Part shown: positions 15,259-26,879 of the stretch, piece by piece | How the letters are laid out: each line of letters starts with the position of its first letter | Position numbering within the stretch: the stretch's first letter is position 1 | Assembly: GCA_029782355.1 (NCBI GenBank) | Contig: JAKOUY010000016.1 | Location: 310,001-374,000 of the forward strand | Source of the DNA: Actinomycetes bacterium | GTDB taxonomy: Bacteria > Actinomycetota > Acidimicrobiia > Acidimicrobiales > Ilumatobacteraceae | Reading direction: 5' to 3' | DNA length: 64,000 nt | The notes under the pieces: model-generated | Told to the model about the DNA's origin: nothing | Database searches by the model: none | What the model saw: the letters and a program-made list of their open reading frames with translations, nothing else | Made by a program: the position numbers and the translations under genes

Positions 15259-16860
15259 TCACCCGGCCAGGACGACAGCCTCGTAGATCGGCACGCCGGC
15301 GAAGGCCGTCATCGACTTGATCTTCGTCGAGGTCACGAAGTTGTAGGTCTCGTAGAACAGCGGGATCCACGGCAGGTCGCGGGCCAGGATGTCGGTCTGG
15401 ATCTTCGAGTACAGCTCGATGGCCTTGGCCTGATCGACCTCGGCGTCCGCCGCCTGCAGCGCCGCCGTGATCTCGTCGGTGTAGTACGCCACACAGTTCG
15501 GGCAGCCACCCTCCTTGGTGTAGAAGGCGTGCAGCGTGTTCTGCATGCTCGGATACAGGGCGCCCCACCGGCTGAAGTACAGCCCGGAGAACTGCGCACC
15601 CTCCCGGGCGGAGGCGAACGAGGCCCAGTCCGTGCTGGGCCTGGCGACGGCGTCGACACCGAGGTTCTGGCGGATCTGGTTCGCGTAGGCCTGGTAGATC
15701 TCGTCGATGCCCAACCCGCCCGGGTAGTGGATCTCCAGTGGTCCGGTCCATCCGCCGGCTTCGGCGAGGAGCGCCTTGGCCTGCTCCGGGTTGAACACGC
15801 ACGACTCGCCACAGGCGTTCTCGGGGGTCCCGATCTCCGCGGCTGGTGTGAACGAGGTGGCCGGCGTCAGGGCTCCGGCGAAGATCGCCTTGTTGACCGC
15901 CGCCCGGTCGATCGACATCGAGATCGCCTTGCGCAGCTTGGGGTTCTCGAATCGCTGGTCCCACAACGAGACACCCAACCCGGCGATCCCCGGCGCAGCG
16001 TTGAAGTACACCCGGTCGCCGAAGTCCGACTTGGCGACGCTCATCTTGGCGGGCGGGACGCCGGCGATGTCGACGTTGTCGGCCAGCGCGTCGGCGTAGG
16101 CCGTGTTCGGATCGGCGTACAGCTTGAAGGTGATCTTCCCGGAGGTCGGCTGCTTGCCCTGGTACTTGTCGTAGGCGACCAGCTCCAGGTCCTCGGTGTC
16201 CTTGTAGGGCTTGGTCATCATGAACGGGCCATTGCCGATGGGCATGGTGTCCTGTGCCGCCGGATCGGCCAGGCCGGCCTTGGACATCGGGTAGAACGCG
16301 GTCTGCGCCTGGGTCAACTGCAACGGGAACTGCCCGTCGGGTGCGGTCAGCTTGACCGTGAAGGTCAGGTCGTCGACGACCTTCAGCCCACTCATCTGCG
16401 TCACGGTCGGCTCCCCCTCGGCCGGGTTCAGCGCGGCGTAGCCGTCGATGTGCATGAGGAAGCCGTTGTTCTCCATCTTGTTGGTCTTCAGGGCTTCGGC
16501 GTTCCATCCGTCGACGTAGCTCGAGGCGGTCACCGGCTCGCCGTTGTGGAACGTCCACCCCGGCTTGAGCGTGATCGTCCAGTTCTGGGCGTCGGTGCTG
16601 GTCACCGATTGGGCCTGGCCCATGGTCACCCGGTTCTGGTCGTCGATGACCACGAGCGAGGTGTACATCAGCATGACCTGATCGAACATCACCGTCTGCC
16701 GGTACGGCGACAGCAGTCCCGGCTGCAGCATGGCCACGGAGATCTGTCCACCGGGCGCCGCGGCTGCCGGAGCCGGACGGGCGCCGGCCGCCACTCCGCC
16801 TGCGCCCACCACCGTCATGACGGCGACGGCGATCGCGGCACTGAACCTTGAACGACGCAT
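15259..16860 (-). CDS. Peptide ABC transporter substrate-binding protein (SBP family 5)
   Basis: The 533-residue secreted protein has a twin-Arg-free Sec signal (MRRSRFSAAIAVAVMTVVGAG, with cleavage near an Ala-rich site around residue 40). The canonical family-5 order follows: lobe I start (ISVAMLQPGLLSPYRQ), then NWTITLKPGWTFHNGEPVTA near residue 115, PIGNGPFMMTKPY near 210 and LRKAISMSIDRAAVNK near 320. Four cysteines (NACGESCVF, GCPNC) may form disulfides. It captures peptides outside the cell for the DppBC-like permeases. It is the first gene of the operon and has GGGAGGAG before its ATG and a well-formed promoter 77 bases upstream. Confidence 0.9.
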   Translation of the reverse strand: MRRSRFSAAIAVAVMTVVGAGGVAAGARPAPAAAAPGGQISVAMLQPGLLSPYRQTVMFDQVMLMYTSLVVIDDQNRVTMGQAQSVTSTDAQNWTITLKPGWTFHNGEPVTASSYVDGWNAEALKTNKMENNGFLMHIDGYAALNPAEGEPTVTQMSGLKVVDDLTFTVKLTAPDGQFPLQLTQAQTAFYPMSKAGLADPAAQDTMPIGNGPFMMTKPYKDTEDLELVAYDKYQGKQPTSGKITFKLYADPNTAYADALADNVDIAGVPPAKMSVAKSDFGDRVYFNAAPGIAGLGVSLWDQRFENPKLRKAISMSIDRAAVNKAIFAGALTPATSFTPAAEIGTPENACGESCVFNPEQAKALLAEAGGWTGPLEIHYPGGLGIDEIYQAYANQIRQNLGVDAVARPSTDWASFASAREGAQFSGLYFSRWGALYPSMQNTLHAFYTKEGGCPNCVAYYTDEITAALQAADAEVDQAKAIELYSKIQTDILARDLPWIPLFYETYNFVTSTKIKSMTAFAGVPIYEAVVLAG

Positions 16861-20840: not shown

Positions 20841-21824
20841 TCAGGTGGCCCAGTGGCAGGCTGCCCGCAGGGAGGACGTGGCCTCGCCGACCGGGCGCAG
20901 GTCTGGCTGCTCGTCGGCGCAGCGGGTCGCCTGGACCTCCGGACAGCGCGGGTGGAACGAGCAGCCGCTCGGCGGGTTGGCCGGTGACGGCACGTCGCCA
21001 CTGAGGATGATCCGCCGGCGCTGATCGCGTCCGGCGGGGTCGGGGACCGGAACCGCCGACAGCAAGGCCTTCGTGTAGGGGTGCTTGGGGTGGTCGAAGA
21101 CGTCGTCGCGGGTGCCGATCTCCACCACCCGGCCGAGGTACATCACGGCGATCCGGTCGCAGAGGTGCTCGACCACGGCCAGGTCGTGGGAGACGAACAG
21201 GATCGTGAAGTTCAGCCGACGCTGCAGGTCGCGCAGCAGGTTGAGGATCTGCGAGCGGATCGACACGTCGAGCGCCGAGACCGGCTCGTCGGCGATCAGG
21301 AACGCCGGGTCCAGCGCCAGGGCCCGGGCGATGCCGATGCGCTGGCGTTGCCCGCCGCTGAACTCGTGCGGGAACCGGGTGGCCACGGCCGGGTCGAGGC
21401 CGACCAGCTCGAGCACCTCGGCCACCCGCTGGCGGCGGGCGTCCCGATCGGTGCCGTGGGCGCGCAACCCCTCGGCGATCGAGTCGCCGACGGTGGCTCG
21501 CGGGTCGAGCGACGAGTAGGGGTCCTGGAAGACGATCTGCATGTCCCGGCGCACCTGGCGCAGCTCGGCGCCCTCGGTGGCCAGGAGATCCGTGCCGCGG
21601 AACGAGATCGTCCCGGACGTGGGGTCGATCAGCCGCAGCAGCAAGCGCGACAACGTGGTCTTGCCGCACCCGGACTCACCGACCAGGCCGACCACCTCCC
21701 CGGCATAGATGTCCAGGTCGACGTCCTGCACGGCGCGCACCTCGCCGGCGGTGCGCGAGAAGGCGCCACCGCGAATCGGGAACGTCTTGCTGACGCCCCG
21801 GGCTTGGACGAGGAGCTCGGTCAT
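20841..21824 (-). CDS. Peptide ABC transporter ATPase, OppF/DppF-like
   Basis: The 327-residue ATPase has Walker A GESGCGKT, signature FSGGQRQRI, Walker [14 protein letters not shown] and the H-loop in [13 protein letters not shown]. The C-terminal oligopeptide domain carries [16 protein letters not shown], the four-cysteine motif typical of OppF/OppD that can bind an iron-sulfur cluster. It is the last gene of the second peptide operon, and its ATG overlaps the stop of the OppD-like gene (ATGA). It hydrolyses ATP on the cytoplasmic side to drive import. Confidence 0.9.
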
Positions 21825-22840
21825 CGGCGCCGCCCGCCGAGCACGACCGGCTGGTCGACGGCATCGCTGTGCAGGAAGCAGCGCACCTGGCGCGCCGGCT
21901 GGACCTCCACCAGGGCCGGCGTAGCGGTAGCGCACCGGTCCATCCGCTGCGGGCAGCGTGGCGCGAATCGGCATCCTTCGGGCGGGTCGACCAGCGTCGG
22001 GACCCGACCGCGGATGACGGCCAGCTCGTCCTGGCGCCGCCCGAGCACCGGGACCGACCCGAGCAGGCCCTCGGTGTAGGGGTGCAGCGGCTCGGCGAAC
22101 AGCGTCGTGACCGCGGCCTGCTCGACGATCTGGCCGCCGTACATCACCGCCACCCGGTCGGCCATCTCGGCGACCACCCCGAGGTCGTGGGTGATCAGGA
22201 CCACGGCGGCATGAGTCTGGTGCTGCAGCTCGCGCATCAGATCGAGGATCTGGGCCTGGATCGTCACGTCGAGGGCTGTGGTCGGCTCGTCGGCGATCAG
22301 CAGCTCGGGCTGGGCGGCCAGTGCCATGGCGATCATCACCCGCTGGGCCTGCCCACCGGACATCTGGTGGGGGAAGGCCTTGGCCTTCTTCTCCGGATCG
22401 GGGATCCCGACGCGGCGCATCATCTCGACGGCCCGGGTGGCCTGCTCGCCGCGCTTCATCGAGCTGTGCACCCGGTAGACCTCGGCGATCTGGTCGCCGG
22501 CGGTGTAGCACGGGTGCAGGCTGGCGTTCGGCTGCTGGAAGACCATCGAGATGCGGTTGCCGCGGATCCGGTGGAGGTCGCCGGTGGGCATGTTCAGCAC
22601 GTCGCGGCCGTCGAAGATGACGCTGCCGGCCACCACCCGGCCCGGGCGATCGACGAGCCGCAGGGCCGACAGCATGGTGACGCTCTTGCCGCTGCCGGAC
22701 TCGCCGACCAGACCGAGGACTTCGCCGCGGGACACGTCGAGATCGACCCCGTCCACGGCGTGGACGTCGCCGGCCTCGGTGCGGAACCAGGTGCGCAGGC
22801 CGCGGATCGACAGCAGCGGGCTGGCCAGGCCGTCAGTCAC
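21821..22840 (-). CDS. Peptide ABC transporter ATPase, OppD/DppD-like
   Basis: The 339-residue ATPase has GESGSGKSV (Walker A, near residue 45), MSGGQAQRV (signature), [13 protein letters not shown] (Walker B), [13 protein letters not shown] (H-loop) and a C-terminal [15 protein letters not shown] motif. It pairs with the OppF-like ATPase that follows. The GTG start overlaps the end of the permease gene by 8 bases, so translation is coupled. Confidence 0.9.
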
Positions 22841-23813
22841 GACCAGCCGTCCGCGGGTCGAGGGCGTCGCGCAGGGCGTCGCCCAGCAGGTTGAAGGCGA
22901 TGACGTTGAGGAAGATCATCGCTCCGGGGAAGAACACCAGGTGTGGGGAGTTGAAGATCAGGCCGCGGGCCGCGGCGATCATCGTGCCCCACTCGGCGGT
23001 GGGCGGGGTGACCCCGAGGCCGAGGAAGCCCAGCCCGGCGATCTCCAGCACGGCGGTGGCGAAGCCCAGCGTCGACTGGACGATCAGCGGCGTCAGCGTG
23101 TTCGGGAAGATCCGGTGGCGCAGGATCCGGCCGCGGGGCACGCCGAGGGCGACGTCGGCGGTGACGAAGTCCTGCTCCTTCAGTGACAGCACCTGGGCGC
23201 GCACGACGCGGGCGTAGGTGGGCACGCCGACGATGGCGATGGCCAGGATGCTGTTGATCAGTCCCTTGCCGAGGACGGTGACGATGAGGATCGCCAGGAG
23301 CAGGGATGGGAAGGACAGGATGATGTCCATGATCCGCATCAGCACGTTGTCCAGCCACTTGCCGTAGAAGCCGGAGATCAGCCCGAGGATCGTGCCGACG
23401 ACCACGCTGAGGATCACCGCCGCGGCGCCGGCCAGCAGTGACAGCCGGGTGCCGTAGACCACCCGGCTGAACTCGTCGCGACCGTTCTCGTCGAGCCCCA
23501 TCACGTGTTGGACCTCGCCCGAGTCGCACCCGAGGAGGTGTACGCACGGCTGCTCCAGCTTGCGCTCGTTGCGTGACGAGTCGAGCAGGACCTTGGTGGG
23601 CGGGTACGGGGCGATGACCGGGGCGAGCACGGCGACCCCGACGAGGAACACCGCCAGGACGAGTCCGAGACGTCCGGACCACGAGCGAAGGACGCTGCGC
23701 CAGATGTCCCGTCCACGCCCACCGGAGGCCGCGGAACGTTGTGGTGCACCGGCCGCGGTGACCGCCTCGTGGGGGATCTCCGCCGGCGTCTCGGCACCCG
23801 GGTCGAGGCTCAC
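22833..23813 (-). CDS. Peptide ABC transporter permease, OppC/DppC-like
   Basis: The 326-residue protein has an N-terminal hydrophilic tail of about 45 residues, then six spans. The long first periplasmic loop carries two cysteines (QPCVHLLGCDSG) and GLDENGRDEFSRVVYGTRLS, the OppC hallmark. The EAA loop (ADVALGVPRGRILRHRIFPN) contacts the ATPases. The GTG start overlaps the stop of the DppB-like gene (GTGA). The loop disulfide is speculative. Confidence 0.9.
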   Translation of the reverse strand: MSLDPGAETPAEIPHEAVTAAGAPQRSAASGGRGRDIWRSVLRSWSGRLGLVLAVFLVGVAVLAPVIAPYPPTKVLLDSSRNERKLEQPCVHLLGCDSGEVQHVMGLDENGRDEFSRVVYGTRLSLLAGAAAVILSVVVGTILGLISGFYGKWLDNVLMRIMDIILSFPSLLLAILIVTVLGKGLINSILAIAIVGVPTYARVVRAQVLSLKEQDFVTADVALGVPRGRILRHRIFPNTLTPLIVQSTLGFATAVLEIAGLGFLGLGVTPPTAEWGTMIAAARGLIFNSPHLVFFPGAMIFLNVIAFNLLGDALRDALDPRTAGRD

Positions 23814-24871
23814 GAGGGACGCACCCGCGGGTCGAGGACGGCGTAGAGGATGTCGGTGATCAGGTTGACCACGACGAAGGCCAGGCCGACGATCAGCGAG
23901 AAGCCCTGGACCACGCCGTAGTCGCGCGCCGTGATGCTGTCGAACAGGGTCTTGCCCACGCCGGTCAACCCGAACACGGTCTCGGTGAGGATCGCCCCGC
24001 CCAGGAGCCCGCCGAGCGACAGGCCGATGACGGTGACCACCGGCAGCAGCGCGCTGCGCAGGGCATGGCGGCGGACGACGGCGAACTCGCTGAGGCCCTT
24101 GGCCCGGCTGGTGCGCACGTACTCGTGCCCGAGCACGTCGAGCAGGCTGCTGCGGGTCATCCGGGCGATGATCGCCAGCGGGATGGTGCCGACTGCGACG
24201 GCCGGCAGCACGAGGTGCTCGGCGGCGTCGACGACGACCCGCCAGTTCCACTGCAGCAGGCCGTTGAGCAGGGTGTGGTTGGAGATGAACTCGAGCAGGC
24301 CGTTCTGGTGCAGGCCCCACTGGGCGTAGAACGGCTTGGGGATCAGTCCGGCGCTGAGCCGGCCGCTGGGTGGCAGGGCCAGCCAGGTGTTCTTCAGCAT
24401 CACGGCGAACACGTATTGCAGGACCAGGCCGAGGACGAAGACCGGGACGGAGATCCCGGCGTTGGCCACGATCATCGTCCCGGCGTCGATCAGCGAGTTG
24501 CGTCGCCGGGCGGCGATGACGCCGAGCGGGATGCCGACGACGACGGCGAAGAGCAGGGCGGCGATCGACAGCTCGACCGTCACGGGGAGGCGCTCGGCGA
24601 TCAGGGTGGTGATCGGCCGGCGGACCTGGAACGACCGCCCGAAGTCGCCGTGGAGCATGTTGTTCATGTACCGGCCGAGCTGGACGATGATCGGGCGGTC
24701 GAGCCCGTTGCGCCGGTTGAAGTCGTCACAGACCGCCTTGGTGGCGCGCTCGCCGAGGGTCGCCTTGCATGGATCGCTCGGAATCACCCGGGCGAGGACG
24801 AAGACGGCGATGACGATCCCGAACAGGACCGGGATCGAGGAGAGCAGCCGGCGGAGGATGAATCGGGTCAT
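23810..24871 (-). CDS. Peptide ABC transporter permease, OppB/DppB-like
   Basis: The 353-residue protein starts with the OppB-type MTRFILRRLLSSIPVLFGIV and has about six spans. An enlarged periplasmic insertion around residues 165-215 includes aromatic and Asn-rich segments. The EAA loop is TSRAKGLSEFAVVRRHALRS. It forms the channel with the OppC-like partner. It follows the binding-protein gene after a 56-base gap filled by a strong hairpin. Confidence 0.9.
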   Translation of the reverse strand: MTRFILRRLLSSIPVLFGIVIAVFVLARVIPSDPCKATLGERATKAVCDDFNRRNGLDRPIIVQLGRYMNNMLHGDFGRSFQVRRPITTLIAERLPVTVELSIAALLFAVVVGIPLGVIAARRRNSLIDAGTMIVANAGISVPVFVLGLVLQYVFAVMLKNTWLALPPSGRLSAGLIPKPFYAQWGLHQNGLLEFISNHTLLNGLLQWNWRVVVDAAEHLVLPAVAVGTIPLAIIARMTRSSLLDVLGHEYVRTSRAKGLSEFAVVRRHALRSALLPVVTVIGLSLGGLLGGAILTETVFGLTGVGKTLFDSITARDYGVVQGFSLIVGLAFVVVNLITDILYAVLDPRVRPS

Positions 24872-24927: not shown

Positions 24928-26604
24928 TCAGCTCTTGGCGGGCGGGTTCAAGAACCCGCCGAACAGCGCCGAGAAGTAGGTGAAGTCGCCGGTGCGACCC
25001 TTGTGCAGCGGGCTCGCTGCGTCCCACTGGACGGTGAAGCTGTCGACCACGTCGGTGGCGTCGAGGTCCGACCCGTCGGAGAACTTCACGCCCTTGCGCA
25101 GGTGGAAGGTCCACTCGGTCAGGGCGTCGTTGCTCTCGAAGGACTCGGCCAGCGACGGAACCACCTTGGTGCCGCCGACCTCGTAGGCCAGCAGCGACTC
25201 GCCGATCTGCTCGCAGACCCGCAGAGCCTCGCCGTCGGTCTCATCGGCGCAGTACAGGCCGCTCGGCTCGCCGTTCTGGACGAACACGAACTGGTCCTGA
25301 CCGTCGATGCCCATCACCGAGAGGTTCTCGTTGGACAGCGGGCTGGCGTGGGCGCCCTTGACGGCCGCCTTGTAGGCGACGGCGGAACCGCCGTAGGCCA
25401 CGGGGACCATCGGGACGTGCTCGGCCAGCAGGGCGTTGACGTCCTGGTACAGCTTGGCGCGGGCGGCCGGGTCGGCGGTCTGGGCGGCTTCCTGGATCTT
25501 GGCGTGCAGATCGTCGAAGCCCTTGCCGAACTGCGGCGAGGCTCCGGCACCGAAGTGGTAGTCGAAGAAGTTCGTCGGGTCCGGATAGTCGGCGCCCCAG
25601 CCCAGCAGGTAGAAGGGCAGCTTGCCGGCGTTGGCGTTGTCGAGGAAGGTGCCCGACTCCTGGACGTCCAGCTTGATCCGGATGCCGATCTCGGCCAGTT
25701 GGGCCTGGATGTCGGTGGCGATCGGGGTCGGCTGGGGCAGGTAGCCGCGCTGGACGTCGCGGTAGCTCAAGGTGACGTCGACGCCGTCCTTCAGGCCGGC
25801 CTGCTCCATCAGCTTCTTGGCCTCGTCGACGTTCTTGGTGAAGTCGGTGAAGCCCTTGTCGAAGCCGGGGATGCCCGGCGGGAGGAACTGCGTGGCGGCG
25901 ACGGAGCCCTTCGGGTAGAAGTTGTCGACCAACCGCTGGCGGTCGAGGGTCAGGGCGATCGCCTTGCGCACTTCGGGCTTGTCGAACGGGGCCATGTCGA
26001 CGTTGAAGCCGACGTAGAACACGTTGAGCGCGTCACGCGGCTTGACCTGGAAGTTCTTGTCGGCCTCGACCGTCGCGAAGTCGTCGGTGCCGAGGTTGTC
26101 GATGCCGTCGGCGTTGCCGGACTGCAGCTCGACGAGGCGCTGGGCGCTCTCCCCGTTCCACTTGAAGACGACGGTCTTCGACAGGGCCTTGGTGCCCCAG
26201 TAGTTGTCGTTGCGCTCGAGGACGATCTGGCTGCCCTTCTCCCATGCCTTCAGCACGTAGGGGCCGGTCCCGACCGGCTTCTCCAGCAGGTCGCCCGTGC
26301 CGCCCGTGGACTTCAGGTACTCGCTCGGCGCGATCTGGAATGCCGAGAAGGCCACCTTGGCCGGGAAGGCCACATCGGGCCCGCAGAGGGTGAACTTCAC
26401 CGTGCTGGCGTCGACGGCCTCGATGGCCTTAATGTTGCTGCTGTTCTTGGCCTTGTCGGCGCACAGGTCACCGGTGGCCGCAGCGGTTCCGGCGGTGGTG
26501 CCGCCGCTGGTGGGCGGCGTGGTTGCTGATGCGGTGCCCATGGCGACCAACAGCAGTCCTGCACTTGCGGCGAGCAGCGCGCCCGCGCGAGTGGTTCGGC
26601 GCAT
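24928..26604 (-). CDS. Peptide ABC substrate-binding protein, apparently circularly permuted
   Basis: The 558-residue secreted protein has a signal peptide (MRRTTRAGALLAASAGLLLV, cleavage after ASA near residue 27). The mature part does not open with the usual lobe I start but with a segment that normally lies about 130 residues in (VDASTVKFTLCGPDVAFPAK, then PVGTGPYVLKAW and ERNDNYWG). The missing start segment, including PSLAESFESNDALTEWTFHL and RKGVKFSDGSDLDATDVVDS, appears at the very C-terminus (about residues 437-545) after the normal end region. It also carries a cysteine pair, LYCADETDGEALRVC. Its position before two permeases and two ATPases shows it is the binding protein of the second peptide importer. 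A GGGGGA RBS supports the ATG. Confidence 0.85.
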   Translation of the reverse strand: MRRTTRAGALLAASAGLLLVAMGTASATTPPTSGGTTAGTAAATGDLCADKAKNSSNIKAIEAVDASTVKFTLCGPDVAFPAKVAFSAFQIAPSEYLKSTGGTGDLLEKPVGTGPYVLKAWEKGSQIVLERNDNYWGTKALSKTVVFKWNGESAQRLVELQSGNADGIDNLGTDDFATVEADKNFQVKPRDALNVFYVGFNVDMAPFDKPEVRKAIALTLDRQRLVDNFYPKGSVAATQFLPPGIPGFDKGFTDFTKNVDEAKKLMEQAGLKDGVDVTLSYRDVQRGYLPQPTPIATDIQAQLAEIGIRIKLDVQESGTFLDNANAGKLPFYLLGWGADYPDPTNFFDYHFGAGASPQFGKGFDDLHAKIQEAAQTADPAARAKLYQDVNALLAEHVPMVPVAYGGSAVAYKAAVKGAHASPLSNENLSVMGIDGQDQFVFVQNGEPSGLYCADETDGEALRVCEQIGESLLAYEVGGTKVVPSLAESFESNDALTEWTFHLRKGVKFSDGSDLDATDVVDSFTVQWDAASPLHKGRTGDFTYFSALFGGFLNPPAKS

Positions 26605-26788: not shown

Positions 26789-26794
26789 GTGTGG

Positions 26795-26879
26795 CGGAAG
26801 GAGTGGGATTTGAACCCACGGAGGCTTGCACCTCGCACGCTTTCGAGGCGTGTCCCTTTGGCCGCTCGGGCATCCTTCC
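26795..26879 (-). tRNA. tRNA-Ser (anticodon CGA)
   Basis: The 85-nt class II tRNA has acceptor GGAAGGA/TCCTTCC, anticodon stem CACGC/GCGTG with loop CTCGAAA (anticodon CGA), a long variable arm and T arm GTGGG TTCAAAT CCCAC. Confidence 0.96.

Follow-up and report, generated by a model that had tools for sequence, protein, structure and literature searches.

The closest described relative of the protein studied here is DppA, the substrate-binding protein of the Dpp importer of Escherichia coli. According to the description of its structure, residues R383 and D436 of DppA clamp the ends of the peptide, and the scoop of the permease DppB enters the DppA cleft, where it has been proposed to seal the cavity (PMC12136057). 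For a binding protein in which the order of the chain itself has been changed, the point of reference is TpMglB-2 (Tp0684) of Treponema pallidum, a cluster B glucose-binding protein described as a natural circular permutant and for which the name 'Cluster Bc' was proposed (PMC4990184). Among the matches listed in our search of the open-access literature we noticed TpMglB-2 as the one ABC importer binding protein that is naturally permuted, with no other beside it and none belonging to family 5 or cluster C.

Here we describe a gene in a stretch of DNA from a member of the Ilumatobacteraceae (assembly GCA_029782355.1, contig JAKOUY010000016.1, positions 310,001 to 374,000). This whole stretch of 64,000 nucleotides is referred to as the window. 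We conclude that its product is very likely a circularly permuted form of a cluster C substrate-binding protein (family 5, DppA/OppA-type) that arose in nature and is most probably functional.

Order of segments in the binding protein

The gene lies at positions 24928 to 26604 on the minus strand of the window, with an ATG start at 26604 and a stop codon at 24928-24930, as the initial annotation had it; the parts of this gene and the operon genes described below are on this strand. It encodes a permuted DppA/OppA-type substrate-binding protein of 558 residues, as recognized from the open reading frame together with the profile and DppA matches. Judged by eye, residues 1-27 (26524-26604) make up a Sec-type signal peptide that ends in ASA, followed by TT. 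By sequence match residues 58-428 (25321-26433) correspond to mature residues 124-501 of E. coli DppA (1dpe; 152-529 in the precursor numbering of 8z1y), and they presumably comprise the second part of domain II, the rest of domain I and domain III. The usual opening of the mature protein follows at the C-terminal end, where residues 439-547 (24964-25290) match DppA precursor residues 31-146 (8z1y); in the comparison with 1dpe, residues 468-547 correspond to mature residues 33-118. In between, residues 429-438 (25291-25320) fuse the old C-terminus to the old N-terminus. These alignments place the new termini between DppA residues 118 and 124, and a short linker joins the old C- and N-termini.

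The Pfam family SBP_bac_5 (PF00496) matches the protein in two stretches, each of which is singly above the Pfam cut-off: profile positions 61-365 at window 25540-26469 (E 7.4e-74) and, nearer the 3′ end, positions 1-53 at 25009-25167 (E 3.0e-15). The whole protein scores 299.2 bits against a curated cut-off of 32.4 (E 5.9e-89). Since profile segment 61-365 comes ahead of 1-53, which is not the canonical order, we have filed the protein as a permuted subfamily homologous to SBP_bac_5 and not as a canonical member. The C-terminal segment also matches the DppA opening segment (45.3 bits, i-Evalue 5.2e-11). The circular permutation that had been claimed from the sequence is thus borne out by SBP_bac_5 and DppA matches that occur in swapped order, and a lobe I start elsewhere in the chain did not turn up, neither of these two comparisons having matched a second copy of the opening segment in the permuted protein. 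Pfam finds SBP_bac_5 only, and the Pfam and NCBIfam scans give nothing but family 5 names, with the SgrR model as a weak hit, so that the rearrangement is visible only from the order of the profile hits.

A search of the same genome with PF00496 gave ten matches in nine genes, with one match in each of the eight other genes. Seven of these eight controls were also in normal order when checked segment by segment. In the eighth (L009) our profile of the opening segment gave no match, yet Pfam covers the protein in a single stretch (13-363). The sister protein at 15259, put forward in the initial annotation as a protein in the usual order, is collinear (profile 7-364, one stretch) and for this reason represents a fair internal control.

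A tRNA-Ser (cga) gene (26792-26879) closely precedes the permuted gene in the same orientation, and four further tRNA genes are present in the window. Promoter and terminator scans returned nothing.

Predicted structure

The AF2 model obtained with only seven permuted rows had a pLDDT of 70.6 and a pTM of 0.65, with model residues 481-518 under 50. With 50 rows (the 7 permuted rows plus 23 core and 20 opening fragments of normal-order relatives, entered as separate rows) these values reached 91.9 and 0.90, the confidence rising only once the normal-order fragments had entered as rows. Apart from the new N-terminus, where the first two blocks have means of 66 and 73, the last 28 residues are the weakest part of the 50-row model (block means 74, 75 and 56). 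Using VIA-align 2, model residues 1-394 could be superimposed on residues 95-507 of 1dpp (of 507 residues) with a Z score of 31.3 over 383 residues at 3.1 Å, and residues 1-395 on 3m8u with a Z score of 32.1 over 383 residues at 2.1 Å. The identity with DppA in the structural alignments is 28-29%. The structure comparisons (Foldseek, VIA-align 2) are sequential, and the VIA-align rows cover model residues 1-396 only; the aligned part of the model ends at the last DppA residue, while residues 439-547 match the first part of DppA by sequence. Judging by their titles, the hits listed in these structure comparisons belong to cluster C. The protein is predicted to fold as a usual two-lobed Venus flytrap with its new ends meeting in domain II. 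Structure prediction had been suggested as a check in the initial annotation, and the confident model agrees with the protein being DppA-like and complete.

Alternatively, the C-terminal 120 residues, instead of supplying what lobe I lacks, could be a domain added to a truncated binding protein, a reading favoured by the first, shallow AF2 model, which was poor in this region. We consider it very unlikely: the segment is homologous to the DppA opening and to SBP_bac_5 1-53, no other copy was matched, and the deeper model is confident with a pTM of 0.90. A second alternative would be domain swapping, in which a dimer forms as the C-terminal segment of one molecule fills in lobe I of another. 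AliC, a cluster C protein, has been described as crystallising as a domain-swapped dimer (PMC11192437), and the linker at the junction is short. However, the AF2 model of the monomer is confident, and the termini of oligopeptide-binding proteins are said to be near each other in the fold (PMC10924461); a swapped dimer appears improbable to us, if somewhat less so than an added domain.

Junction and break point

The gap between the two profile matches measures 4-8 residues in the listed permuted proteins, with the exception of L138, where it is 23. The junction of the window protein, SPLSNENLSVMGIDGQDQFVFVQNGEP, is 27 residues long; in the normal-order sister L024 the C-terminus SPVSIESFAGVSLG and the mature start GGTFVFGASADP amount together to 26 residues. 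L138 (G429) and L137 (G428) are divergent permuted paralogues on long branches, with 31 and 35% identity to the window protein, respectively.

The break point is situated after an FGGF-type motif and ahead of the IEAVD strand. The nearest relatives in the usual order, the Actinomycetota proteins L024, L025, L045 and L013 (35-38% identity over the core), carry a GG[FY] motif at the break point just as the permuted proteins do, but they are devoid of Cys at the four clade positions and of the scoop Cys pair described below. In OppA the limits of domain II are residues 45-168. In AliD, domain II has been assigned to residues 64-190 in lobe 1 (PMC11192437). Compared with these domain limits, the new termini of the window protein are probably inside domain II of lobe I and not at the lobe boundary.

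The new N-terminus

By a loose pattern a lipobox-like Cys is found in 62 of 70 permuted relatives, in most of them with a long linker after it; of the remaining eight, some are truncated at the N-terminal end. No such Cys is present in the window protein or in G007, and the idea of a lipid anchor is therefore not applicable to the window protein as it stands. A relative from a Devosia MAG (Gram-negative) has an ordinary signal-like start. As to the SBP_bac_5 proteins of the window genome (L001-L009), whose host is presumably an actinobacterium without an outer membrane, no lipobox Cys was seen in their starts by eye, and two of these (L001 and L005) look Tat-like.

In a few relatives whole modules are fused at the new N-terminus, which fits an N-terminus that is exposed. 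A single chain in a Candidatus Aquidulcis MAG (L019:2760-5513) consists of a Ser/Thr kinase (Pkinase, E 2.9e-40), a hydrophobic stretch and a permuted SBP_bac_5, and its gene is placed directly ahead of those for a second, stand-alone permuted binding protein and a DppB-type permease; this fusion is possibly a peptide-sensing receptor kinase. In L215 (189-2642, minus strand) an SBP_bac_3 domain (E 2e-45), and in L213 (155-2488, minus strand, cut by the contig end) a Peripla_BP_6 domain (E 7.1e-32), is fused to the N-terminus of the permuted binding protein, so that a single chain combines binding proteins of two classes.

Such a front module, i.e. the lipid anchor of most relatives or the kinase or additional binding protein of a small number, would sit on domain II and would thus no longer be attached to the first strand of domain I. 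The permutation might have been kept for this very reason, as an N-terminus on domain II would free the core sheet and the hinge of domain I from the membrane tether. The lipobox-like Cys in 62 of 70 relatives, mostly ahead of a long linker, and the kinase, SBP_bac_3 and Peripla_BP_6 fusions speak in favour of this idea. On the other hand, the window protein and G007 are without the Cys, the Devosia relative starts with an ordinary signal-like sequence, and normal-order family 5 proteins can have N-terminal fusions as well, SgrR being one example. A similar proposal has been put forward for TpMglB-2 (PMC4990184); for the present clade we regard relief from the tether as possible but doubtful.

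Distribution and origin

The survey of homologues called for in the initial annotation revealed that the permuted order is common to homologues in the class and phylum samples. In the class of the window, 52 of 395 sampled genomes match at E <= 1e-60; the match runs through the junction in 51 and the remaining genome, G053 (query 50-447), has the normal order. The phylum of Leptolinea yields 60 matching genomes out of 400, among which 53 match through the junction, 6 cover the core only, like normal-order proteins, and one (G659) stops at query 410 and was counted in neither class. The permuted protein was found in 6 of 396 genomes in the sample of the window's phylum, which overlaps with the class sample, two of the six being from another class. 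Where loci were retrieved the order was also checked segment by segment, and for the rest it corresponds to a match through the junction. Within the family to which the window belongs, the permuted protein occurs in 2 of 37 genomes, hence the distribution is patchy. Among 80 loci from named genomes, six are permuted, 73 have the normal order and L097 was assigned to neither class. The six permuted loci are from Leptolinea sp. HRD-7, Candidatus Aquidulcis (a MAG with two neighbouring permuted copies), Devosia, Acidimicrobiia and two Anaerolineaceae. All are MAGs except HRD-7, a complete genome (AP024710.1, L018) carrying the permuted order. By these matches the rearranged protein is carried by many bacteria in at least two phyla, Actinomycetota and Chloroflexota.

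The trivial explanation for the swapped order would be misassembly, a gene-calling error or a decayed gene. Most of the genomes seem to be MAGs or draft assemblies, and chimeras can occur in these; the copy in L023 is split over two overlapping frames and a few matches have an internal stop. However, the match crosses the same junction in more than 100 other assemblies, one of them a complete genome, with a frame that is mostly unbroken, and among the permuted homologues residues are invariant across phyla. The assembly rearrangement considered in the initial annotation can be set aside on these grounds, and we judge this whole class of artefacts extremely unlikely.

For phylogenetic analysis the opening segment and the core of each protein were restored to canonical order. 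Fragments, order-ambiguous rows and distant normal-order rows were excluded by length and score limits, for the trees as well as for the Cys counts given below. The 70 permuted rows of 122 form one side of a branch with an SH-aLRT value of 100 and no normal-order row inside the clade, and the clade was recovered after dropping long or fast rows (68 permuted rows of 101), both trees being quick ones calculated without bootstrap. Nearest to the permuted clade are normal-order Actinomycetota proteins, with a weak joining branch (58). Most likely the permutation arose once. Acidimicrobiia and Chloroflexota require at least two changes each on the tree and the Devosia row is placed among Acidimicrobiia rows; for these reasons transfer between phyla looks likely from the sequences, while the Devosia contig may be a binning error.

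The permutation would most likely have started with a tandem duplication of the binding protein gene, followed by fusion of the end of copy 1 to the start of copy 2 and loss of the outer parts. A short linker would be sufficient in such a fusion because the old N- and C-termini of these proteins lie close together. Adjacent copies of the binding protein gene occur in some normal-order relatives (L027, L039 and L076-L078). An intermediate form, in which two complete copies are fused, did not turn up among the relatives examined, so that the route of origin is one that we infer. Neighbouring copies are present at G783:C68:44061-47451 (permuted) and at L039:5794-9183 and L027:5464-10944 (normal order), and might be the kind of raw material from which a permutation by duplication can arise.

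Operon and putative function

The permuted gene is the first of a dppBCDF-type operon. It is followed by genes for a dppB-type permease (23810-24871; BPD_transp_1, E 2.8e-43), a dppC-type permease (22833-23813; BPD_transp_1, E 2.1e-34, and OppC_N, with a GTG start that we chose), a dppD-type ATPase (21821-22840) and a dppF-type ATPase (20841-21824, scanned from 21821), both ATPases having ABC_tran and oligo_HPY matches. Two BPD_transp_1 permeases and two ABC_tran plus oligo_HPY ATPases beside the binding protein gene qualify the locus as a DppABCDF-type operon, and the gene order SBP-B-C-D-F is common to the E. coli dpp operon. We compared 26 permuted loci (the window, L018-L022 and L187-L206, with L021 and L189 from one genome). 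A dppB gene is present at 25 of them, in L205 on the opposite strand, and absent at L203. Both dppD and dppF are present at 18 loci and were not both found at the other 8, some of the 26 loci being cut by contig ends while others may have ATPases elsewhere.

R286 of the window protein (25747-25749) aligns with DppA R383, and D339 (25588-25590) with D436. The Arg is conserved in 68 of 70 permuted rows and the Asp in 69 of 70; the 50 normal-order rows of the same alignment have Arg in 25 and Asp in 32 cases. From its homology we take the protein to be a putative di- or oligopeptide binder of an importer. R286 and D339 would hold the ends of a short peptide in the manner of R383 and D436 in DppA, and the binding protein would dock on DppBC, take the DppB scoop into its cleft and release the peptide for import. 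The altered ligand access anticipated in the initial annotation is unsupported, since the ligand-clamping residues and the operon partners have been retained.

Clade-specific Cys residues in the binding protein and permeases

What does accompany the permutation, as far as the alignments can tell, is a set of Cys residues in the binding protein and both permeases. The Cys pair near the junction that had been pointed out in the initial annotation is real: C452 (25249-25251) is a Cys in 68 of 70 permuted versus 0 of 50 normal-order rows, and C464 (25213-25215) in 68 of 70 versus 1 of 50. There is a second pair near the new N-terminus, absent from that annotation, consisting of C48 (26461-26463) in the new N-terminal arm and C74 (26383-26385), the latter being a Cys in 70 of 70 permuted versus 0 of 50 normal-order rows. 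Any Cys within the N-terminal arm, which is a loose count, occurs in 70 of 70 versus 12 of 50 rows. One aligned Cys column of the arm gives 68 of 70 versus 0 of 50; in this column the window protein has an Ala and its C48 aligns a few residues off. Part of the clade has two more pairs of Cys columns (40 of 70 in the moved segment and 45 of 70 in the core, against 0 of 50 normal-order rows).

In the window DppB, C35 (24767-24769) and C48 (24728-24730) bracket the GER of the scoop loop. We take E41-R42 to be the equivalent of the scoop-loop ER of E. coli, by number and from the E. coli sequence. The DppB Cys pair is found in 63 of 63 partners of permuted binding proteins versus 0 of 42 normal-order partners after removal of repeats (column counts before removal: 66 of 66 versus 0 of 47); the pattern of the pair fits 64 of the 66, and the two others read GPRAT at the loop. 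In the window DppC, C90 and C96 occupy the loop that follows the first transmembrane stretch, a pair present in 26 of 26 versus 2 of 57 sequences (29 of 29 versus 2 of 69 before repeat removal), the two normal-order cases (L025 and L185) having a different spacing. For these counts, rows sharing a 60-residue stretch were dropped as repeats and rows with a match starting after query residue 40 (DppB) or 110 (DppC) were omitted, as were DppB rows below 60 bits.

How tightly this type of DppB and the permuted binding protein are coupled can be seen from the 395 genomes of the class: 51 have a DppB above 300 bits, 51 have a permuted binding protein and 48 have both, the DppB type having been assigned in this count by score and not by the Cys pair. 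G053, the normal-order case, has a DppB of 288.8 bits and was set apart from the 51. In the 48 genomes the two genes are not always on the same contig (G397). The three DppB-only and three SBP-only genomes are cases at contig ends, and the DppB-only contig of G378 keeps the 3′ end of a permuted gene. Within the class sample no uncoupled case was encountered where the contig was long enough; but as both traits have a shared ancestor, this attests to co-inheritance and not to function.

We assume from their spacing that the Cys pairs form disulfides, those predicted in the binding protein being C48-C74 and C452-C464. The permutation could then be part of a re-engineered transporter, a Dpp-type importer whose outward-facing parts have changed in concert. 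The binding protein would be held by two disulfides, one of which pins the new N-terminus; in DppB a disulfide would lock the scoop around its ER loop, and the DppC loop would be stapled as well. Considering that the scoop enters the DppA cleft in E. coli, a stapled scoop could change docking or release. We offer this scenario tentatively and consider it possible, if on balance unlikely. Should it be true, the proteins would represent a distinct subclass of cluster C, 'Cluster Cc', with altered docking and release, and the free N-terminus on domain II would serve as an attachment site, taken by a lipid anchor, a sensor kinase or an additional binding protein.

Another explanation is that the permutation persisted as a neutral change, the product of one accidental duplication in the operon's ancestor, and was passed on by descent and transfer. 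One origin as well as the retained ligand residues and operon partners would agree with this. Yet there is no normal-order row within the clade of 70, and three products of the operon carry clade-specific Cys, although these could be hitch-hiking marks of one lineage. We find neutrality quite plausible, short of probable, and a stronger candidate than relief from the tether.

Comparison with known systems

Whatever the reason, nature has kept a re-ordered fold, with the same rearranged protein found in many bacteria beside transporter genes. More than a hundred homologues, with homology on both sides of the break and with sisters in normal order, provide natural pairs for comparison, which allow asking if the permutation changes folding, binding, docking or tethering. 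The co-inherited Cys pairs of the permeases offer a concrete starting point for asking in what way the docking surface may have been altered.

E. coli DppA (1dpp, 8z1z; PMC12136057) resembles the window protein over both pieces, with R383 and D436 as the counterparts of R286 and D339. It differs in that the chain of the window protein is permuted at 118-124 and that the clade-specific Cys and the DppB and DppC Cys pairs are added to the system. The permutation itself is better compared with that of TpMglB-2, which likewise has the opening strands of its N-lobe at the C-terminus, occurs in many species and is mostly thought to be tethered. In TpMglB-2, as described, the hinge is crossed a fourth time as a result of the permutation, and sequence conservation is poor in the permuted part (PMC4990184). 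In contrast, the window protein belongs to cluster C, its moved part is clearly homologous, its break is probably in domain II and its hinge crossings should be unchanged. It shares the permuted topology of 'Cluster Bc' but not the homology to cluster B sugar-binding proteins, Pfam finding SBP_bac_5 only. The window protein is the cluster C counterpart of the TpMglB-2 permutation.
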